DNA of 35,540 bases from Gammaproteobacteria bacterium (lineage in GTDB: Bacteria > Pseudomonadota > Gammaproteobacteria > HK1): NCBI GenBank assembly GCA_021773635.1, contig JAJFJV010000029.1:1-35540 (forward strand). Direction: 5' to 3'. The notes below the pieces were generated by a model. The model did not search any database and was not told the origin of the DNA. It saw only the letters and a list, made by a program, of their open reading frames with translations. Positions 26,963 to 35,540 of this stretch are shown piece after piece. The position numbers were made by a program, and so were the translations under genes. The first letter of the stretch is position 1; every line of letters begins with the position of its first letter.

Positions 26963-28261
26963 CTAGCTGATGGCGGATTGAGGCATTTTGTCCGAGGTGA
27001 GAGACAGACGTTCCACCAGGTTGTTGAGAAACACCTTGTGAAAGCGTAACTGGCAAGCCAGCGAGGTGCGCTCGATAAGCGAGGTGCGAACTTTCATAAC
27101 CGTGACTTCCGTCTTGGCCACAATGCCTACCGGGCGGACCTTTCCGGCAATAAAGCCACTTTCGCCAAAGCAGTCGCCGCGCTCCAGGGAATCCACGACG
27201 CGCTCGCCTTTCTGTACCACCACCGTTCCGGAGACGATGATATAAAAGGAGTTGTCCAGTTCTCCTGCCTCGAAGATGTCCGCACCTGCCCCGTATTCTT
27301 CCCAGCTCGTTGCCGTGATGACCTCCCAAATTTCTGCTACATCAAACTCCCGGAAAAATCGGAGTTCCTTGATGAGATTAAATTTCTCACGATTGGAAAT
27401 TTCCTCTTCCGCCAGGTTCATTTCGTCGAACACCAGACTTAAATCACCCACCAGATCCATACAGGTTTGATAGCGTTTGGCCGGGTCCTTTCTAAGTGCA
27501 CGATCGAGTATGGACTGGAGTACCCGTGGTACGTCCGGCCGTATTTCACGCAGCGGGGTATGGGCGATCTGGGTGATTTGATGAACGATGGCTGGAAGGC
27601 TGCGGGCAGCAAAGGGATGGCGCCCGGTGAGTAGTTCATACATCACTACGCCAATGGAGAAAATATCGCTTCGATTGGTAATTGCGCCATCCAGCATCTG
27701 CTCGGGGGACATATACAGCGGCGAGCCAACATGGCCATGTACCTGGGTTTCGGTGACATCCAGGTGAGTCAGCAGCGCGATACCAAAGTCTCCGATCTTG
27801 ACCTCGCGCTCCCGGGTGAGGAGGATGTTTTTAGGCTTGATGTCACGATGCACAATGCCTTTGCGGTGGGCGTGATCCAGGGCTTTGGCGCATTTGAAAA
27901 TAATGCGCACCACATCATGGATGGGCAGTAGTACATCGGGCCGGCTGAAGCTGTGCAGGGTTTGCCCTCCCGCCACATACTCCATAACGATATACCAGAC
28001 GTCGCCCTCAACGTTGGCGTCGTGGACCTCAATGATGTTGGGGTGCCGGAGCATGCCCGCGACCTTGGCCTCGTTGAAGAATAACTTGCGGCTGCGGGCG
28101 CCGTGCTGACTATCTCGCAGTTTTTCTTCGCGGGCGACCTTGATGGCAACTTTTCGTTCCCCGAAGGGGTCGTAGCCGAGGTAGACATCACTCATGGCGC
28201 CCTTGCCTATTTTGCGCAGGACGTCATATTTTCCGAGTGATTTATCTTTCAAGTTTTCCAT
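26963..28261 (-). CDS. Hanks-type Ser/Thr protein kinase with C-terminal cyclic-nucleotide-binding-type domain
   Basis: From ATG 28261 the protein has 432 residues; an in-frame start at 28420 would add 53 residues unlike a kinase N-terminus. Residues 12-280 are a complete kinase: glycine loop IGKGAMSDVYLG (18-29), Lys41 in VAIK, HRD (138-140) in IVHRDIKPKNILL, DFG (158-160), and SPE (185-187). Residues 300-420 are a Crp-type cNMP-binding beta-roll; the phosphate-binding cassette keeps FGE (365-367) but has RPVG where RxA(T/S) is usual, so cyclic-nucleotide binding is uncertain. There is no membrane span. A PP2C gene lies downstream, suggesting a kinase-phosphatase pair. It is divergent from nnrS. 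Confidence 0.93.
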   Translation of the reverse strand: MENLKDKSLGKYDVLRKIGKGAMSDVYLGYDPFGERKVAIKVAREEKLRDSQHGARSRKLFFNEAKVAGMLRHPNIIEVHDANVEGDVWYIVMEYVAGGQTLHSFSRPDVLLPIHDVVRIIFKCAKALDHAHRKGIVHRDIKPKNILLTREREVKIGDFGIALLTHLDVTETQVHGHVGSPLYMSPEQMLDGAITNRSDIFSIGVVMYELLTGRHPFAARSLPAIVHQITQIAHTPLREIRPDVPRVLQSILDRALRKDPAKRYQTCMDLVGDLSLVFDEMNLAEEEISNREKFNLIKELRFFREFDVAEIWEVITATSWEEYGAGADIFEAGELDNSFYIIVSGTVVVQKGERVVDSLERGDCFGESGFIAGKVRPVGIVAKTEVTVMKVRTSLIERTSLACQLRFHKVFLNNLVERLSLTSDKMPQSAIS

Positions 28262-28281
28262 GGGAGGTGCCGCTGTTGTAT

Positions 28282-28332
28282 TACAGTGGGGCATTGGCAA
28301 TATAGGTGATATTTCCGAGGCAGACCACTGTA
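28282..28332. promoter_or_regulatory. Inverted repeat in the kinase/nnrS divergent region
   Basis: TACAGTGG (28282-28289) and CCACTGTA (28325-28332) are a perfect 8-base inverted repeat 35 bases apart, in the 142-base region between the two divergent starts. It could be an operator controlling one or both genes. I see no clear NsrR, NorR or FNR consensus in the region. Confidence 0.35.
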
Positions 28333-28403
28333 TCACCGTAAATAATGCAGGGGCTTTCGACGGCAGCGTGTTCGTTTTGGTGAGTCCCGGAGCCCGGATA
28401 TTT

Positions 28404-29609
28404 ATGCAGAATAAAGTCAATCTTCAGGTGTCAGCGCCTGGAACCCCCTCGCCGGCCGCCGGCTTCAGGCCTTTCGCCCTCGGTTTTCGCCCCTTCTTTC
28501 TACTCGCTGGCTTCACCGCAGTTTTTCTTTTGGCTTACTGGCTGGCCGTGCTGGCTCTGGGATTGCAACAGCCCGCCTATTACGGCGGTGTGGGCTGGCA
28601 TGGTCACGAGATGCTTTTTGGTTTTGCGGCGGCGGCCATCTCCGGTTTCCTGCTCACCGCGGTGCGTAACTGGACCGGGCGAGACACCGTCAGTGGCTGG
28701 CCGCTGGCGGCGTTGGTGGCGGTCTGGCTGGCCGCCCGGGTGATGCCCTTTTGCCCGTGGTCACCAGGCTGGCTGCTTGCCGGTGTGGATCTCGCTTTTC
28801 TTCCGCTGGTGGGAATCTGCATTGCCCCCGCCCTGTTCAGTGGCAAGGCCCATAATCTGGTTTTTCTCCTGCTACTCGCCGTTTTTGCCGGTGCCAATGC
28901 CATGGTGCATGCGGATGCCCTTGGTTATGCCGTGGGCACTGCGGGTGCGGGCAATCGGCTCGCGGTCAATCTGGTGGTGTTTTTTGTAGTGGTCATTGGT
29001 GGACGAGTGATCCCTTTCTTTACGGAAAAGGCGATCGCAGACTTTCAGATGCCGGCCCATCCGCGCCTGGAGGGGATGGTGATTGTTTCCCTGATCGCCC
29101 TGATTGCGGCCGAGTTATTGGCCCCCCAGCCCCTGGTGATTGCCACTCTGGCGATTATCGTGGCACTTACCCAGGGCGCTCGCCTTGCCGGCTGGCATCA
29201 CCGTGAAATGTGGTCACTCCCCATCCTCTGGGTACTGCACTTGGCTTATGCCTGGTTAATACTGGGTTTTGCGCTGAAGGCCCTGGCCGCTATCGGTCTG
29301 GTGTCCGAATTTATCGCCATCCATGCGCTTACGGTTGGCGGTGTGGGTACCATGGTGCTGGGGATGATGTCGCGGGTTGCATTGGGGCATACGGGGCGCG
29401 CCATAGAGGTGTTGCCAGGGATGGGTATAGCCTTCGTGCTTATCAACCTTGCCGCCCTGTTGCGGGTTTTCGGGCCGCTGGTGTTTCAGGAATCCTACAC
29501 ACGCTGGTTAATGGTCTCGGGCGGGCTGTGGATAGCCGCCTTTGGTCTGTTTGCCTGCATTTATACCCCCATACTCCTGCGGGCGCGGGTAGATGGTCGG
29601 CCGGGTTAG
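28404..29609 (+). CDS. nnrS: NnrS-family membrane protein
   Basis: From ATG 28404 the protein has 401 residues, the usual NnrS length; the open frame extends upstream to 28194, but that part overlaps the kinase gene and lacks family residues. About twelve hydrophobic spans can be read. Signatures are FRPFALGFRPFFLLAG (21-36), WHGHEMLFGFAAAAISGFLL (65-84), GGRVIPFFT, and GMMSRVALGHTGR near the end, with conserved histidines. NnrS is a heme- and copper-containing membrane protein that relieves nitric oxide stress by an unknown mechanism and is normally NO-regulated. No nitrite or NO reductase genes lie in the window. A GTG-start unknown gene follows after nine bases. Confidence 0.93.
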   Translation: MQNKVNLQVSAPGTPSPAAGFRPFALGFRPFFLLAGFTAVFLLAYWLAVLALGLQQPAYYGGVGWHGHEMLFGFAAAAISGFLLTAVRNWTGRDTVSGWPLAALVAVWLAARVMPFCPWSPGWLLAGVDLAFLPLVGICIAPALFSGKAHNLVFLLLLAVFAGANAMVHADALGYAVGTAGAGNRLAVNLVVFFVVVIGGRVIPFFTEKAIADFQMPAHPRLEGMVIVSLIALIAAELLAPQPLVIATLAIIVALTQGARLAGWHHREMWSLPILWVLHLAYAWLILGFALKALAAIGLVSEFIAIHALTVGGVGTMVLGMMSRVALGHTGRAIEVLPGMGIAFVLINLAALLRVFGPLVFQESYTRWLMVSGGLWIAAFGLFACIYTPILLRARVDGRPG

Positions 29610-32094: not shown

Positions 32095-33666
32095 ATGGGC
32101 CCAAGGCCGAATCTGCCAGTCGCTTATGAAATCGAGTCCGAGACGAGTCTTCGGCGTGTCCTGAAAATGCTCGCCGAGCATTTTCCGCTCGAGCGCAGCC
32201 CGGCTTTGGAGCGGCATCTGGTCTGCCTGGATACCTTCGACTGGCGCCTCTACAGGGCTGATGCAAGGCTCTCGGCCGTGACTCGGGGGCAAGGGACGCT
32301 GCTCCGGCTTGAGGTCAACGGGAGCTGGTGCGAGAGCTCCCTCAACGGCTCGGTCGTGCCCGCATTTTCCTGGGAGCTGCCGGCTGGCGATCTGCATGAT
32401 TTGATAGCTCCCCTCATTGATGTGCGATGCCTGTTACCACTGGTCAATCTGCAGGTCCGGGAGCAAGCCCTGCGCATTTTGAATGCTGACCAGAAGACTG
32501 TGGTGCGTTTGACCATTGAGCACACCACGGTCACCACGTCGGAAGGGGGTCAGCCAGTTGAGAGTCTTCAACCGGTACTGAGGCTGGCTCCGGTGAAGGG
32601 TTATCAAAAGGCGGCTCGCAGGGTGACGGACTTCCTGGAGTCAGAATTGAAGCTGGCCCGCTCCAGCCCCGATCCCATGGTGCTTGCGCTGGCGGCCATC
32701 GGCCGCACCCCGGGTGATCGGCGCGATCGGCTTACCTTCGAGCTCGATTCCGCCATGCGCTGCGATGCGGCGCTCAGAACCATCCACCGTACCCAGCTCG
32801 ACACCATGCGCCTCAACGAGGACGGCGTGCGCCGGAATCTCGATTCCGAGTTTCTGCACGAATTCCGGGTTGCGGTGCGCCGGACCCGGGCGGCGCTTGC
32901 CCAGGTGAGGGGGGTATATCCACCGGATGTGGTGGCGCATTTCAAGAAGGAGTTCAGGTGGCTGGGTGGGGTCACAGGCCCGGTTCGGGACCTGGATGTC
33001 TATCTCTTCATGATGGACGACTACCGGGCCGAGTTGCCCGAGGCGCTCGGTGATGAACTGACCCCCCTGCATGAGCACCTGCGCCGCCATCACCGCAGCG
33101 AGCACCGCCGACTGGTTCGGGCGCTCGGGTCAGAGCGTTACCAGACCTTGCTTCACGACTGGCAGCAGTTTCTCGATACGGCCGATGAATGTGATCCGGA
33201 GTTCTGCCCGAACGCCACCCGGCCCCTTGCCGAGGTTTCCTCGCAGCGCATCTGGAAGGCCTTCCGTCGAGTCGTCAGTCAGGGCCGGGCTATCACTGCC
33301 GAAACTCCCGCCGAGGCGCTGCACCGGCTACGGATCGAATGCAAGAAACTGCGTTACCTGATGGAGTTCTTCCGCAGCATCCATGACCCCAAACAGATCG
33401 GACGGCTAATCCGCGCCCTCAAGAAGCTTCAGGTTAATCTGGGAGATTTCAATGACCTGGAGATACAGCAGGGTTCGCTGGAGCGATTTGCGTTGGAGAT
33501 GTCCGAGGAGGGAGAGGCGCCGGTCCGGTGCCTGATGGCCATGGGTCGTCTGGTCGATCACTTGTACGAGCGTCAGAAGACGGAACGGACCCGCTTCTCA
33601 CGCTGCTTCGCCCGGTTTTCAACGTCCGCCAACGAGAAGAGGTTTCGGCGCTTGTTCAAGCGCTGA
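32095..33666 (+). CDS. CHAD-domain protein with degenerate CYTH-like N-terminus
   Basis: The 523-residue protein has a C-terminal CHAD domain (about 215-523), a helical bundle rich in conserved His, Arg and Lys. Residues 253-266 (FLHEFRVAVRRTRA, with His255) and the later LHRLRIECKKLRYLMEFFR form its two repeats, and ARRDLDVYL-like PVRDLDVYLFMMDDYR is also typical. CHAD domains bind inorganic polyphosphate and target polyphosphate granules. The N-terminal 200 residues resemble a CYTH (triphosphate tunnel) domain, with VCLDTFDWRLYRADARLS matching the DT-x-x-x-x-L region, but the ExExK motif reads EIESET, so catalysis is doubtful. The ParA gene starts two bases after the stop. Confidence 0.88.
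   Translation: MGPRPNLPVAYEIESETSLRRVLKMLAEHFPLERSPALERHLVCLDTFDWRLYRADARLSAVTRGQGTLLRLEVNGSWCESSLNGSVVPAFSWELPAGDLHDLIAPLIDVRCLLPLVNLQVREQALRILNADQKTVVRLTIEHTTVTTSEGGQPVESLQPVLRLAPVKGYQKAARRVTDFLESELKLARSSPDPMVLALAAIGRTPGDRRDRLTFELDSAMRCDAALRTIHRTQLDTMRLNEDGVRRNLDSEFLHEFRVAVRRTRAALAQVRGVYPPDVVAHFKKEFRWLGGVTGPVRDLDVYLFMMDDYRAELPEALGDELTPLHEHLRRHHRSEHRRLVRALGSERYQTLLHDWQQFLDTADECDPEFCPNATRPLAEVSSQRIWKAFRRVVSQGRAITAETPAEALHRLRIECKKLRYLMEFFRSIHDPKQIGRLIRALKKLQVNLGDFNDLEIQQGSLERFALEMSEEGEAPVRCLMAMGRLVDHLYERQKTERTRFSRCFARFSTSANEKRFRRLFKR
33648..33663 (+). promoter_or_regulatory. Hairpin at the CHAD/parA junction
   Basis: GCGCTTG (33648-33654) and CAAGCGC (33657-33663) are perfect inverted copies; a six-base stem with a GTTC loop can form. 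It covers the last codons of the CHAD gene and ends 5 bases before the parA ATG, where a Shine-Dalgarno would be expected and none is seen. It could influence translational coupling. Confidence 0.3.
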
Positions 33667-33668
33667 TC

Positions 33669-34412
33669 ATGCCGCCTATGAAGATTCTGGCTACTTACAA
33701 TATCAAGGGTGGTGTGGGCAAGACGGCCGCCGCCGTGAACCTCGCATACCTTGCTGCCAGAGAGGGCGCCAGAACACTGGTGGTCGATCTGGATCCCCAG
33801 GGCGCCTCCACCTTTTACTTTCGCATCAAGGCCAAGCGCAAAGGTGGCAAGCAGCTGATCCAGGGCAAGCGCAATATTCACACCTTTATCCGCGGCACCG
33901 ACTACGAGGGACTGGACTTGCTGCGCGCCCGCTTCTCATTCAGAAACATGGACCTGCAGCTGTCCGACTTCAAGAAACCCGCCAGGCGCCTGGCGCGCGT
34001 CATCAAGCCGCTGGCGAAGGACTACGACCTCATCTTCCTGGATTGCCCGCCCAGCATCTCCCTGGTTTCCGAGAGCGTATTCGTCGCCGCTGACACCTTG
34101 CTGGTACCGACCATCCCTACTACCTTGTCCGTGCGCACCCTCCAGCAACTCGGCAGGCACCTCCACGGCGGGGGGCACAAAAAGCTTCGGGTACGGCCTT
34201 TCTTCAGCATGGTCGATCGGCGCAAATCTCTCCACCGGCAAATATGCGAACAGCCCGGTGACAAGACCTACACATTTCTGGAGACCCACATTCCCTACGC
34301 CAGCGCGGTGGAGCAGATGGGTATACGCCGCGCACCGCTGGCCACCTACGCGCGCAGCACGCCGGCGGCCCGGGCCTTTGAGGCGCTGTGGAGTGAAATC
34401 AAGGAGGGGTGA
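33669..34412 (+). CDS. ParA/MinD-type ATPase
   Basis: From ATG 33669 (a second ATG at 33678 is also possible) the protein has 247 residues. The deviant Walker A motif is KGGVGKT (13-19) with the signature lysine Lys13, Walker A' is LVVDLDPQGAST, and Walker B is DLIFLDCPPS. These ATPases dimerise on ATP and bind nucleoid DNA or membrane to position cargo. There is no ParB or parS-like sequence next to it, so chromosome or plasmid partition is unlikely; the two-base gap to the CHAD gene makes a granule-positioning role plausible. Basic residues (RIKAKRKGGKQ, near 52-62) could contact DNA. The longer frame from 33528 would overlap the CHAD gene and was rejected. Confidence 0.9.
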   Translation: MPPMKILATYNIKGGVGKTAAAVNLAYLAAREGARTLVVDLDPQGASTFYFRIKAKRKGGKQLIQGKRNIHTFIRGTDYEGLDLLRARFSFRNMDLQLSDFKKPARRLARVIKPLAKDYDLIFLDCPPSISLVSESVFVAADTLLVPTIPTTLSVRTLQQLGRHLHGGGHKKLRVRPFFSMVDRRKSLHRQICEQPGDKTYTFLETHIPYASAVEQMGIRRAPLATYARSTPAARAFEALWSEIKEG

Positions 34413-34524
34413 TTCCCCAACGTTCCCCTAATACGGTAAGGCTGGTAGGTATCTGCCTACGATGCTTGCCGCGCAATAGAAACTTGCTGCTTTTAGCCAT
34501 AGCTTCTCCGCCCACCGTAGACGC

Positions 34525-35540
34525 TCAGTTGTAAAGCCGCGACCCTGAGATACGTCTTTCGATTATTTGCACGACTTTCTCGTATTCGGGTGAACCTATT
34601 TTTCCGTACCGGCGCCTGAACTCATGCTCCGTCAAGCCCTCTGGCAAATCCAGGACCCGTGGGATCAAATCGGCTTCAGTGATTGCCCCGGCCAGCTTGC
34701 GCTGCAGCTCCCTTGCGCTCGAAAAAGATGCGATGGCAACTTCCCCTAACCGCGTTCCGGCGTTGTCCGCCAGCAAGTCCGTGAAGCTAAAACCGCTGCC
34801 TCCTTGCGAATCGTCCACTTCCTTAAACAAGCCGATCGCTTGAGACAAGGTCGTGCCGCCGGTAACTGCGAGGCCCGCCGACGTTAAGAAATGCTTTGGT
34901 AAGTCATTTCTGCCATGTGATATTACTTTGACTCGTTTGGCCTTCTTCCAATCCTTCACGTCCGGTGCAAGCCGTTCCAGATTGCGACCGTTGATGTAAG
35001 CCGACAACACTACCAGGGCGGCGCGATTGTCTTCGACAGGATTGCCACCGGCGGCGCGCTGCTGTGCGAACACAAAAATCGGTTGCACAACCGCCTCCAG
35101 CGAGGAGCGACGGCCCAATCTATTCACAGTATTCGCCAATTCATGCTGAAAGACTCGCAGCCGCTCCTGGTCCGCGCCACTGACCAGCGTTGAGCGTACC
35201 GCGTCGGCGATGTCACCATGCCACTTGTAGGTAACGTCTACACGTTGATCCGCCAACGCAACCTTCTGGATGACATCTTCGGCATCTTCGTATCCTGGTC
35301 GCGAATAGAGATGGTCCAGCGATTTTTCCAACACGAAGTCGGCAATCAGATTAGGCACCGGAATCTTGCCAAGATCGAGAGATCTGAAGCGCGGCAGACC
35401 ATCTGTTTCGCGCAGGCCGACCTTAAAGTTCAGGTATTGGCCGAGCGGAGTGTTGGGAATCTTGACGCTGGCAGCCATGTCCATCCAGCCACTTTGCACG
35501 AAAATCGCAGCAGAGCCGTCTATAACGTTGAGCAAATAAG
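34525..35540 (-). CDS. Unrecognised protein, C-terminal part (continues past the right edge)
   Basis: The minus-strand frame is open from the stop at 34525 to the window end, giving about 338 residues; the apparent TTG start at 35535 is within an open frame (a TTA codon precedes it), so the true start is probably outside. I do not recognise the family. The segment is soluble-looking, with KIPVPNLIADFVLEKSLDHL, a helical stretch QRVDVTYKWHGDIADAVR, a mixed region around RVKVISHGRNDLPKHFLTSAG with glycines, and FSFTDLLADNAGTRLGEVA near the C-terminus. That last phrase and the ordered helices suggest a folded domain conserved in Proteobacteria, possibly periplasmic. No function is proposed. Confidence 0.7.
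   Translation of the reverse strand, partial: YLLNVIDGSAAIFVQSGWMDMAASVKIPNTPLGQYLNFKVGLRETDGLPRFRSLDLGKIPVPNLIADFVLEKSLDHLYSRPGYEDAEDVIQKVALADQRVDVTYKWHGDIADAVRSTLVSGADQERLRVFQHELANTVNRLGRRSSLEAVVQPIFVFAQQRAAGGNPVEDNRAALVVLSAYINGRNLERLAPDVKDWKKAKRVKVISHGRNDLPKHFLTSAGLAVTGGTTLSQAIGLFKEVDDSQGGSGFSFTDLLADNAGTRLGEVAIASFSSARELQRKLAGAITEADLIPRVLDLPEGLTEHEFRRRYGKIGSPEYEKVVQIIERRISGSRLYN

Follow-up and report, generated by a model that had tools for sequence, protein, structure and literature searches.

What might a CHAD protein and an orphan ParA-type ATPase, encoded side by side in a gammaproteobacterial genome, do together? The two genes lie near one end of a 35,540-nucleotide contig (JAJFJV010000029.1, assembly GCA_021773635.1), which is the entire contig C22 of the source genome, here termed G000, and is referred to below as the window. 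A preliminary description of this DNA had suggested that the pair positions polyphosphate (polyP) granules. Our sequence analyses show the pair itself, the conservation of its two genes and of their order, the polyP-binding residues of the CHAD protein, the ATPase motifs of ParA, and the co-occurrence of the pair with polyP kinase. Since the pair is kept in many bacterial families, it probably places polyP granules, and on balance we favor the view, drawn by analogy, that it is an ATP-driven system that would distribute these granules, with the CHAD protein serving as the cargo adaptor. The features under discussion are as follows.

32095–33666, plus strand: CHAD protein of 523 amino acids, with a degenerate TTM/CYTH-fold N-terminal domain and a CHAD domain of the polyP-binding type; proposed granule-bound adaptor.
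32113–32730, plus strand: N-terminal TTM (CYTH) fold domain, approximately residues 7–212, without the ExExK signature; putative pseudo-enzyme.
32728–33666, plus strand: CHAD domain and C-terminal helices, residues 212–523; H255, R258, R262 and R298 align with polyP-binding residues of C. tepidum CHAD.
33669–34412, plus strand: orphan ParA-type ATPase of 247 amino acids (244 from the ATG at 33678); proposed positioner.
33705–33725, plus strand: deviant Walker A motif KGGVGKT, ParA residues 13–19, numbered from the ATG at 33669.
33822–33851, plus strand: ParA-family-specific basic stretch, residues 52–61, consensus RIKPKxKGGK; candidate binding site for a partner or a polyanion.

In the mechanism that we envision, the CHAD domain would bind polyP on the granule, and the CHAD protein would be the adaptor, in a role like that of McdB or ParB. 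ParA would dimerize with ATP and hold on to a scaffold in the cytoplasm (the nucleoid being the most likely one), and would be discharged wherever CHAD-coated granules meet it. Granules would then chase the remaining ParA and, as a result, become spaced and inherited. The contact between CHAD and ParA, the stimulation of ATP hydrolysis, the binding of the nucleoid and the spacing of granules are steps that we infer by analogy.

Conservation of the CHAD–ParA pair

The CHAD stop codon (TGA, 33664–33666) is followed by the dinucleotide TC and then by an ATG at 33669. The two-base spacing given in the preliminary description holds for this start codon; it becomes 11 nucleotides for the ATG at 33678, which is the ParA start that lines up with relatives. 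Mechanical calling of the ParA open reading frame (ORF) gave a GTG start at 33528, overlapping CHAD, and the stop at 34412.

The ParA profile used for our searches (A1) was built from 12 rows, 11 of them linked to CHAD and one from G041, which has a TldD-type upstream gene. Because its rows are mostly linked, A1 leans toward linked copies, and the linkage rates given here describe the subfamily as A1 finds it. Among G000 and its relatives (55 genomes), ParA was found at E ≤ 1e-30 in 12, and the gene immediately upstream is a CHAD homologue in 11 of these and the TldD-type gene in the twelfth. A sample of 369 genomes of the class yielded 56 strong ParA matches (above 200 bits) in 55 genomes, and CHAD is directly upstream of 41 of them, in 40 genomes. 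Order and strand are identical in all 41 pairs, and the CHAD domain ends 174–382 nucleotides upstream of the ParA match. An extra pair is present in G299, where ParA is split across two frames, bringing the number of pair-carrying genomes to 41, from 28 families as counted by hand.

The pair is also found well beyond this sample. Among the best 80 of 583 ParA relatives in a scan of named genomes, CHAD lies within 3 kb upstream at 61 loci, is not in the fetched stretch at 18, and is located elsewhere at one. Direct pairs number 59, as the CHADs of L119 and L124 are CYTH-CHAD paralogues at a distance and hence were not counted. Titles of linked records name Gamma-, Beta- and Deltaproteobacteria, Thalassobaculum litoreum (Alphaproteobacteria), Thermoanaerobaculia (Acidobacteriota), Gemmatimonadetes, Geoalkalibacter and one Planctomycetota bin; many of these records are contigs of metagenome-assembled genomes, so lone odd phyla may be misbinned. 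A linked pair is present in Methylotuvimicrobium buryatense 5G (L132). Thus, the adjacency is kept in many families and several phyla and is not limited to this genome, which answers the check that the preliminary description had called for.

In 97 linked loci, some of them redundant, the start of the ParA profile overlaps the CHAD stop codon by 4 nucleotides in 44 cases and by 1 nucleotide in 13, and the widest gap is 154 nucleotides. Flanking genes vary between families while the pair stays constant. CHAD-domain and ParA distances correlate over 91 pairs (Mantel r of 0.68, with 0.25 as the top of 2000 permutations), a figure that includes shared species history. The best explanation is that CHAD and ParA form one operon. 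Chance adjacency is ruled out by the conservation of the pair, both in the class sample and among the named loci. No third conserved gene emerged either, as every gene cluster other than ParA and CHAD is confined to 10 or fewer of the 55 fetched loci; these neighbor maps are rough because the greedy ORF caller produced shadow ORFs opposite some ParA genes.

Separated pairs offer another view of the same relationship. The 18 named ParA loci without a nearby CHAD belong mostly to methanotrophs of the Methylococcaceae or Methylococcales, and include one of Methylobacter tundripaludum (L167), a carrier of the split pair; at L151, L159, L161 and L170 the sequence starts less than 1 kb upstream of ParA, which limits what the absence of CHAD there can mean. 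One CHAD lies elsewhere in 16 of these 18 genomes, and all 16 split CHADs carry an N-terminal domain of the linked type (145–243 bits). In the CHAD tree, 14 of them group with linked methanotroph CHADs (100/99); of the other two, one falls with a linked CHAD from G363 and one with a short CHAD that is unlinked. The two genomes of the 18 in which no CHAD was found are sequence records of 1.5 and 2.9 Mb. The bootstrap of this tree is unsettled and its deepest split is weak (47/56); its non-linked comparison set (18 loci plus the CHADs of G000 and G001) was hand-picked, nearly all top-ranked and not random. For both the CHAD and ParA trees, linked named loci were included only if their number is divisible by 3, and duplicates and short domains were dropped.

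The ParA tree, for which one paralogue was trimmed to its last 260 residues, places 94 relatives on one side of a 100/99 branch and four G000 paralogues on the other. Its crown (96/97) is made up of 55 rows with a linked CHAD, 17 with a split pair and 7 that lack a nearby CHAD, and from this composition CHAD linkage seems old within the crown. Outside it lie 14 of the 21 rows labelled as lacking a nearby CHAD, together with one linked row. Two of these 14 (L097 and L099) do have a short CHAD adjoining ParA despite their label. The ParA proteins of these outer lines may work with a CHAD supplied in trans, with a different partner, or without one.

The immediate upstream neighbor of CHAD in the window is an AsmA/DUF748-like gene (under Pfam cut-offs). 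Homology between the window and the congeneric genome G001 breaks off at the stop codon of this gene; CHAD and ParA are both absent from the syntenic site, and G001 yielded no ParA of this family. In the congeneric G002, homology extends through the pair and ends at 34414. The absence from G001 and the patchiness of ParA (55 of 369 class genomes) are what might be expected if horizontal transfer or chance kept two genes together that have no common job. We consider this very improbable, given that the order is common to 28 families despite changing flanks, and that both genes persist after separation in 16 of 18 genomes.

Just past its AsmA-like gene, at the site of the pair in G000 and G002, G001 carries a tRNA-Lys gene. 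The stretch of G002 has no whole tRNA; it has a 42-nucleotide piece, 90% like one end of that tRNA-Lys gene (L228:12269-12310 against L227:5647-5722), about 6.6 kb beyond ParA, and no such piece was found in the window. An island border is possible. On the downstream side of ParA, an opposite-strand ORF (34525–35535, 336 amino acids, no Pfam match) sits just beyond the end of homology to G002.

The CHAD protein and its link to polyphosphate

The Pfam CHAD model (PF05235) matches residues 231–462 of the CHAD protein at 7.3e-65 (219.6 bits against a cut-off of 25.6), and the first 230 residues have no Pfam match at 1e-3. The structural model is of high confidence, with a mean predicted local distance difference test score (pLDDT) of 93.1 and a predicted template modeling (TM) score of 0.89. 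Residues 214–523 match the polyP-bound CHAD of C. tepidum (6qva) with a TM score of 0.94 by target length and 35% identity (structural alignment: Z 36.7, root-mean-square deviation [rmsd] 1.6, 308 aligned). In the C. tepidum protein, H253, R256 and R260 are mutated polyP contacts, and R296 is the counterpart of an arginine that was mutated in S. solfataricus CHAD (PMC6537752). These four residues align to H255, R258, R262 and R298, all of which are present in 42 of 42 relatives. K443 is kept in 40 of 42, and back-side positions 388, 391 and 392 and position 440 are mostly, if not always, K or R.

The N-terminal domain, unseen by Pfam, adopts a TTM fold (residues 6–200 against 2gfg, VIA-align: Z 15.7, rmsd 3.2, 172 residues). 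Full-length YgiF (5a60) spans both domains with an rmsd near 20, so its two domains are arranged differently from those of the CHAD protein. The catalytic signature motif of CYTH/TTM enzymes is ExExK, for which the 42 relatives gave two regular-expression matches, neither convincing, as one lies in an artefactual N-terminal extension and the other has R for K. On this basis we infer that the domain is a pseudo-enzyme, and CHAD as a live TTM enzyme or cyclase was rejected. The pseudo-TTM domain is detected at 54–284 bits in 93 of 97 linked CHADs and is not detected anywhere in a CYTH-CHAD paralogue clade (14 rows). This non-ParA-linked clade includes the second CHAD of G000, a CYTH-CHAD encoded beside PPK2 (C14:114915-116736; L002, L223).

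The loss of ExExK also bears on a function proposed for an Acidithiobacillus CYTH-CHAD encoded next to ppk and parA, that of an adenylyl cyclase, with no role given for parA in the portions available (PMC6416229). If the CHAD protein of our pair were likewise a polyP-regulated cyclase, parA would be uninvolved, and such a bystander leaves the fixed gene order, the overlap and the retention in trans unexplained. We give this possibility very little credence.

Genome content points to polyP as well. PPK1, matched in 218 genomes of the class sample, is present in 50 of 55 ParA carriers and in 168 of 314 other genomes (Fisher p of 3e-8, kinship included), and a CHAD above the cut-off occurs anywhere in the genome in 49 of 55 carriers vs 71 of 314 others. 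The 41 pair-carrying genomes have PPK1 in 38 cases and PPK2 in 40. In five of the 41 (G024, G100, G172, G223 and G282), PPK2 is located no more than 3 kb from the pair. A SixA-like histidine phosphatase is present at 10 of the 55 fetched loci and at 17 of the best 80 named loci; the corresponding numbers are 6 and 7 for PPK1 and 4 and 4 for PPX. From the invariant residues, the structural match, the co-occurrence with PPK1 and PPK2 and some nearby polyP genes, we judge the polyP link of the pair to be strong.

Several individual loci are worth recording. In G024 (C174:3211-5446), a tandem-domain PPK2 begins immediately downstream of ParA, with about 50 nucleotides between the ParA match and the first PPK2 domain. 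G114, G233 and G331, which are of one family, have the pair and PPK2 with no PPK1 match, and a Nudix-like gene (under the Pfam cut-off) follows ParA. G175, an outer ParA line, has PPK1 directly upstream of ParA (L059:3771-6789), and its sole CHAD match is a short piece with in-frame stops that is barely above the cut-off.

Could the cargo be another storage body? Polyhydroxyalkanoate (PHA), or glycogen in methanotrophs, might be considered for this role, as a carboxysome-like spacing system has been considered possible for polyhydroxybutyrate (PHB) (PMC13052382), and ParA is directly upstream of glycogen phosphorylase at 8 of the 18 CHAD-less named loci (L128, L129, L140, L141, L146, L151, L167 and L186). 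The known ligand of CHAD is polyP (PMC6537752), and PHA synthase occurs in just 14 of 41 pair genomes (13 above the cut-off) and was not found in G000, which rules out PHA as the general cargo. Another storage body as the cargo appears highly improbable. MgtE comes next after glycogen phosphorylase in L128 and L129, and directly follows ParA in L168 and L179.

The ParA-type ATPase

The ParA protein matches the Pfam models AAA_31 (2.7e-35) and CbiA (2.5e-14), and more weakly other ParA/MinD-type models. Its deviant Walker A motif, described from the outset as intact, is so throughout the family: K13, G14, G15, G17, K18 and T19 are each present in 42 of 42 aligned relatives, and the V in 41. The Walker A′ and Walker B motifs are likewise present, with D40, D42 and D125 each in 42 of 42. 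Profile searches against the PDB place M. xanthus ParA (8ray, 1.1e-34) closest among solved structures, and McdA (6noo) is among the matches at 2.5e-13. The structural model has a mean pLDDT of 84.5, falling below 50 at residues 58–66, a low-confidence loop into which the basic stretch runs. Within that stretch, R52 is invariant (42/42), and K54, K56, K58 and K61 are present in 35, 34, 38 and 26 of 42 relatives, respectively.

ParA might instead spend ATP on the loading, unloading or remodeling of CHAD (or PPK or PPX) on polyP, and thereby affect the size or number of granules, not their position. That a minority of loci have PPK1, PPK2, PPX or the SixA-like phosphatase close to the pair fits such a role in assembly or turnover, as do the direct PPK1–ParA neighbors of G175 and the strongly basic character of both partners (median isoelectric point of 9.2 for ParA and 9.5 for the CHAD domain). 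Against it stands the identity of the nearest solved relative, a chromosome-partitioning protein, and we consider this role to be decidedly unlikely.

The ParA gene was said to have no ParB nearby, and indeed contig C22, the whole window, has no ParB_N match. Both ParB_N matches of G000 are on other contigs (C21 and C28), each adjoining another ParA-type gene. A stray copy of an ordinary partition gene is therefore ruled out as an identity for this ParA, as its locus lacks ParB and the genome has two other ParA–ParB pairs.

ParA-type proteins often control replication, segregation or division. CHAD might sense polyP and switch a ParA that acts on one of these processes, as in a polyP-tied exit from the cell cycle under starvation. 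The conservation of the two genes fits such signaling too, and polyP has been reported to influence exit from the cell cycle in P. aeruginosa and its progression in Caulobacter (PMC9239181). Weighing the other way, G000 has two separate ParA–ParB pairs, and no cell-cycle gene is found among the recurrent neighbor clusters that were annotated, which are a part of all clusters. Overall, we regard a signaling role as unlikely.

Elsewhere in the window, positions 26963–28420 encode a fusion of a protein kinase domain with a cyclic-nucleotide-binding domain, adjoining an NnrS gene.

Proposed granule positioning and known systems

The granule positioning proposed for the CHAD–ParA pair has precedents among other cargo systems. 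McdAB is composed of a ParA-type ATPase and a cargo-bound partner, with no ParB (PMC13052382). Our pair likewise has a ParA-type ATPase, a proposed cargo-bound partner and no ParB. It differs from McdAB in that a folded TTM–CHAD protein takes the place of McdB as the neighbor of ParA, and in that this ParA is nearer to chromosomal ParA than to McdA. With ParABS systems it shares the ParA motifs and length, as well as the M. xanthus protein as its best PDB relative. Unlike these systems, the CHAD–ParA locus is without ParB, and, from a reading of the profile alignment, its ParA does not retain the M. xanthus residues Y81, E82, D110, E117 and R238. The CHAD phosins (the R. eutropha CHAD proteins, C. 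tepidum 6qva and Streptomyces PptA 6rn5) share with our protein a CHAD domain with invariant polyP-binding residues, whereas our CHAD is encoded with ParA and carries a pseudo-TTM N-terminal domain.

Several observations weigh against granule positioning by the pair, or at least against its simplest form. First, R238 of M. xanthus ParA is required for non-specific DNA binding (PMC12462528), and the column aligned with it in our family holds D or E in 28 of 42 relatives. Second, the CHAD model lacks a long disordered N-terminus such as that of ParB; a long disordered tail was ruled out, as pLDDT falls below 50 at residues 1–3 only. Third, linkage is incomplete and the search favors it: CHAD is not adjacent to 15 of the 56 strong ParA matches in the class sample, 6 of the 55 genomes with ParA lack any CHAD above the cut-off, and the search profile, made of 11 CHAD-linked rows out of 12, is biased to linked copies. 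Conversely, eight CHADs of the linked type, as judged by profile score and tree, occur in genomes without a strong ParA at 1e-40, and 4 of 97 linked CHADs have no N-domain match. Finally, PPK1 is missing from three pair genomes (all with PPK2) and PPK2 from one, and PPK1 is found in 64 of 71 CHAD genomes without this ParA, so its co-occurrence favors CHAD at least as much as ParA.

The positioning idea of the preliminary description thus gains from the conserved pair and the strong polyP link, and loses as a plain copy of McdAB or ParABS on account of the CHAD N-terminus and the acidic residue at the R238 column. With the arginine of the DxR motif (R185) present in 42 of 42 relatives and the R238 column acidic in most, nucleoid binding by ParA appears plausible from the alignment. 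On a bolder reading, prompted by the basic character of ParA, its conserved basic stretch and its lack of the M. xanthus DNA-binding arginine, polyP itself, replacing DNA, may be part of the surface that ParA rides on.

The gene neighborhood is not new. A folD-ppk-parA-CHAD arrangement in Acidithiobacillus is already in print (PMC10892726, PMC6416229), and resembles our locus in its parA and CHAD gene kinds, which there lie next to ppk, matched by description and not by ParA subfamily. The subjects of these papers are copper resistance and nucleotide signaling, and the portions available contain no positioning proposal. In P. aeruginosa, AlgP spaces polyP granules evenly along the nucleoid (PMC9239181); it resembles the pair in the outcome proposed for the latter, and differs in being a histone H1-like tether and not an ATPase. 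A 2025 review, in the part available, has AlgP as its sole entry for polyP granules, with the spacing component question-marked and ATP dependence unknown, and leaves open the use of energy for polyP granule localization (PMC13052382). The main text of a paper on the several ParA/MinD ATPases of H. neapolitanus was negative in a term search for polyphosphate, CHAD and granule (PMC10241942). No proposal of a CHAD–ParA system, or of a ParA system for polyP granules, was found in titles and the beginnings of abstracts, with preprints covered only as PMC copies.

In sum, the adjacency first noticed in a single contig is confirmed, and is stronger than could have been known from that DNA; the interpretation placed on it is well motivated and unproven. 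The explanations differ in what they predict: misplaced granules if the pair is a positioning system, an altered cell cycle if it senses polyP, and altered granule size if it acts in assembly. The arguments are, in our estimate, evenly balanced as to whether a ParA subfamily with a pseudo-TTM–CHAD adaptor constitutes a dedicated, widespread system, present in several phyla, for the ATP-driven partition of an inorganic polymer. If granule positioning proves to be true, ParA-type ATPases would count polyP granules among their cargo, alongside chromosomes, plasmids, carboxysomes and chemoreceptor clusters, and a cell-biological role would be added to what is known of CHAD proteins. The CHAD–ParA pair provides a named two-gene candidate for polyP granule positioning that is present in cultured methanotrophs.

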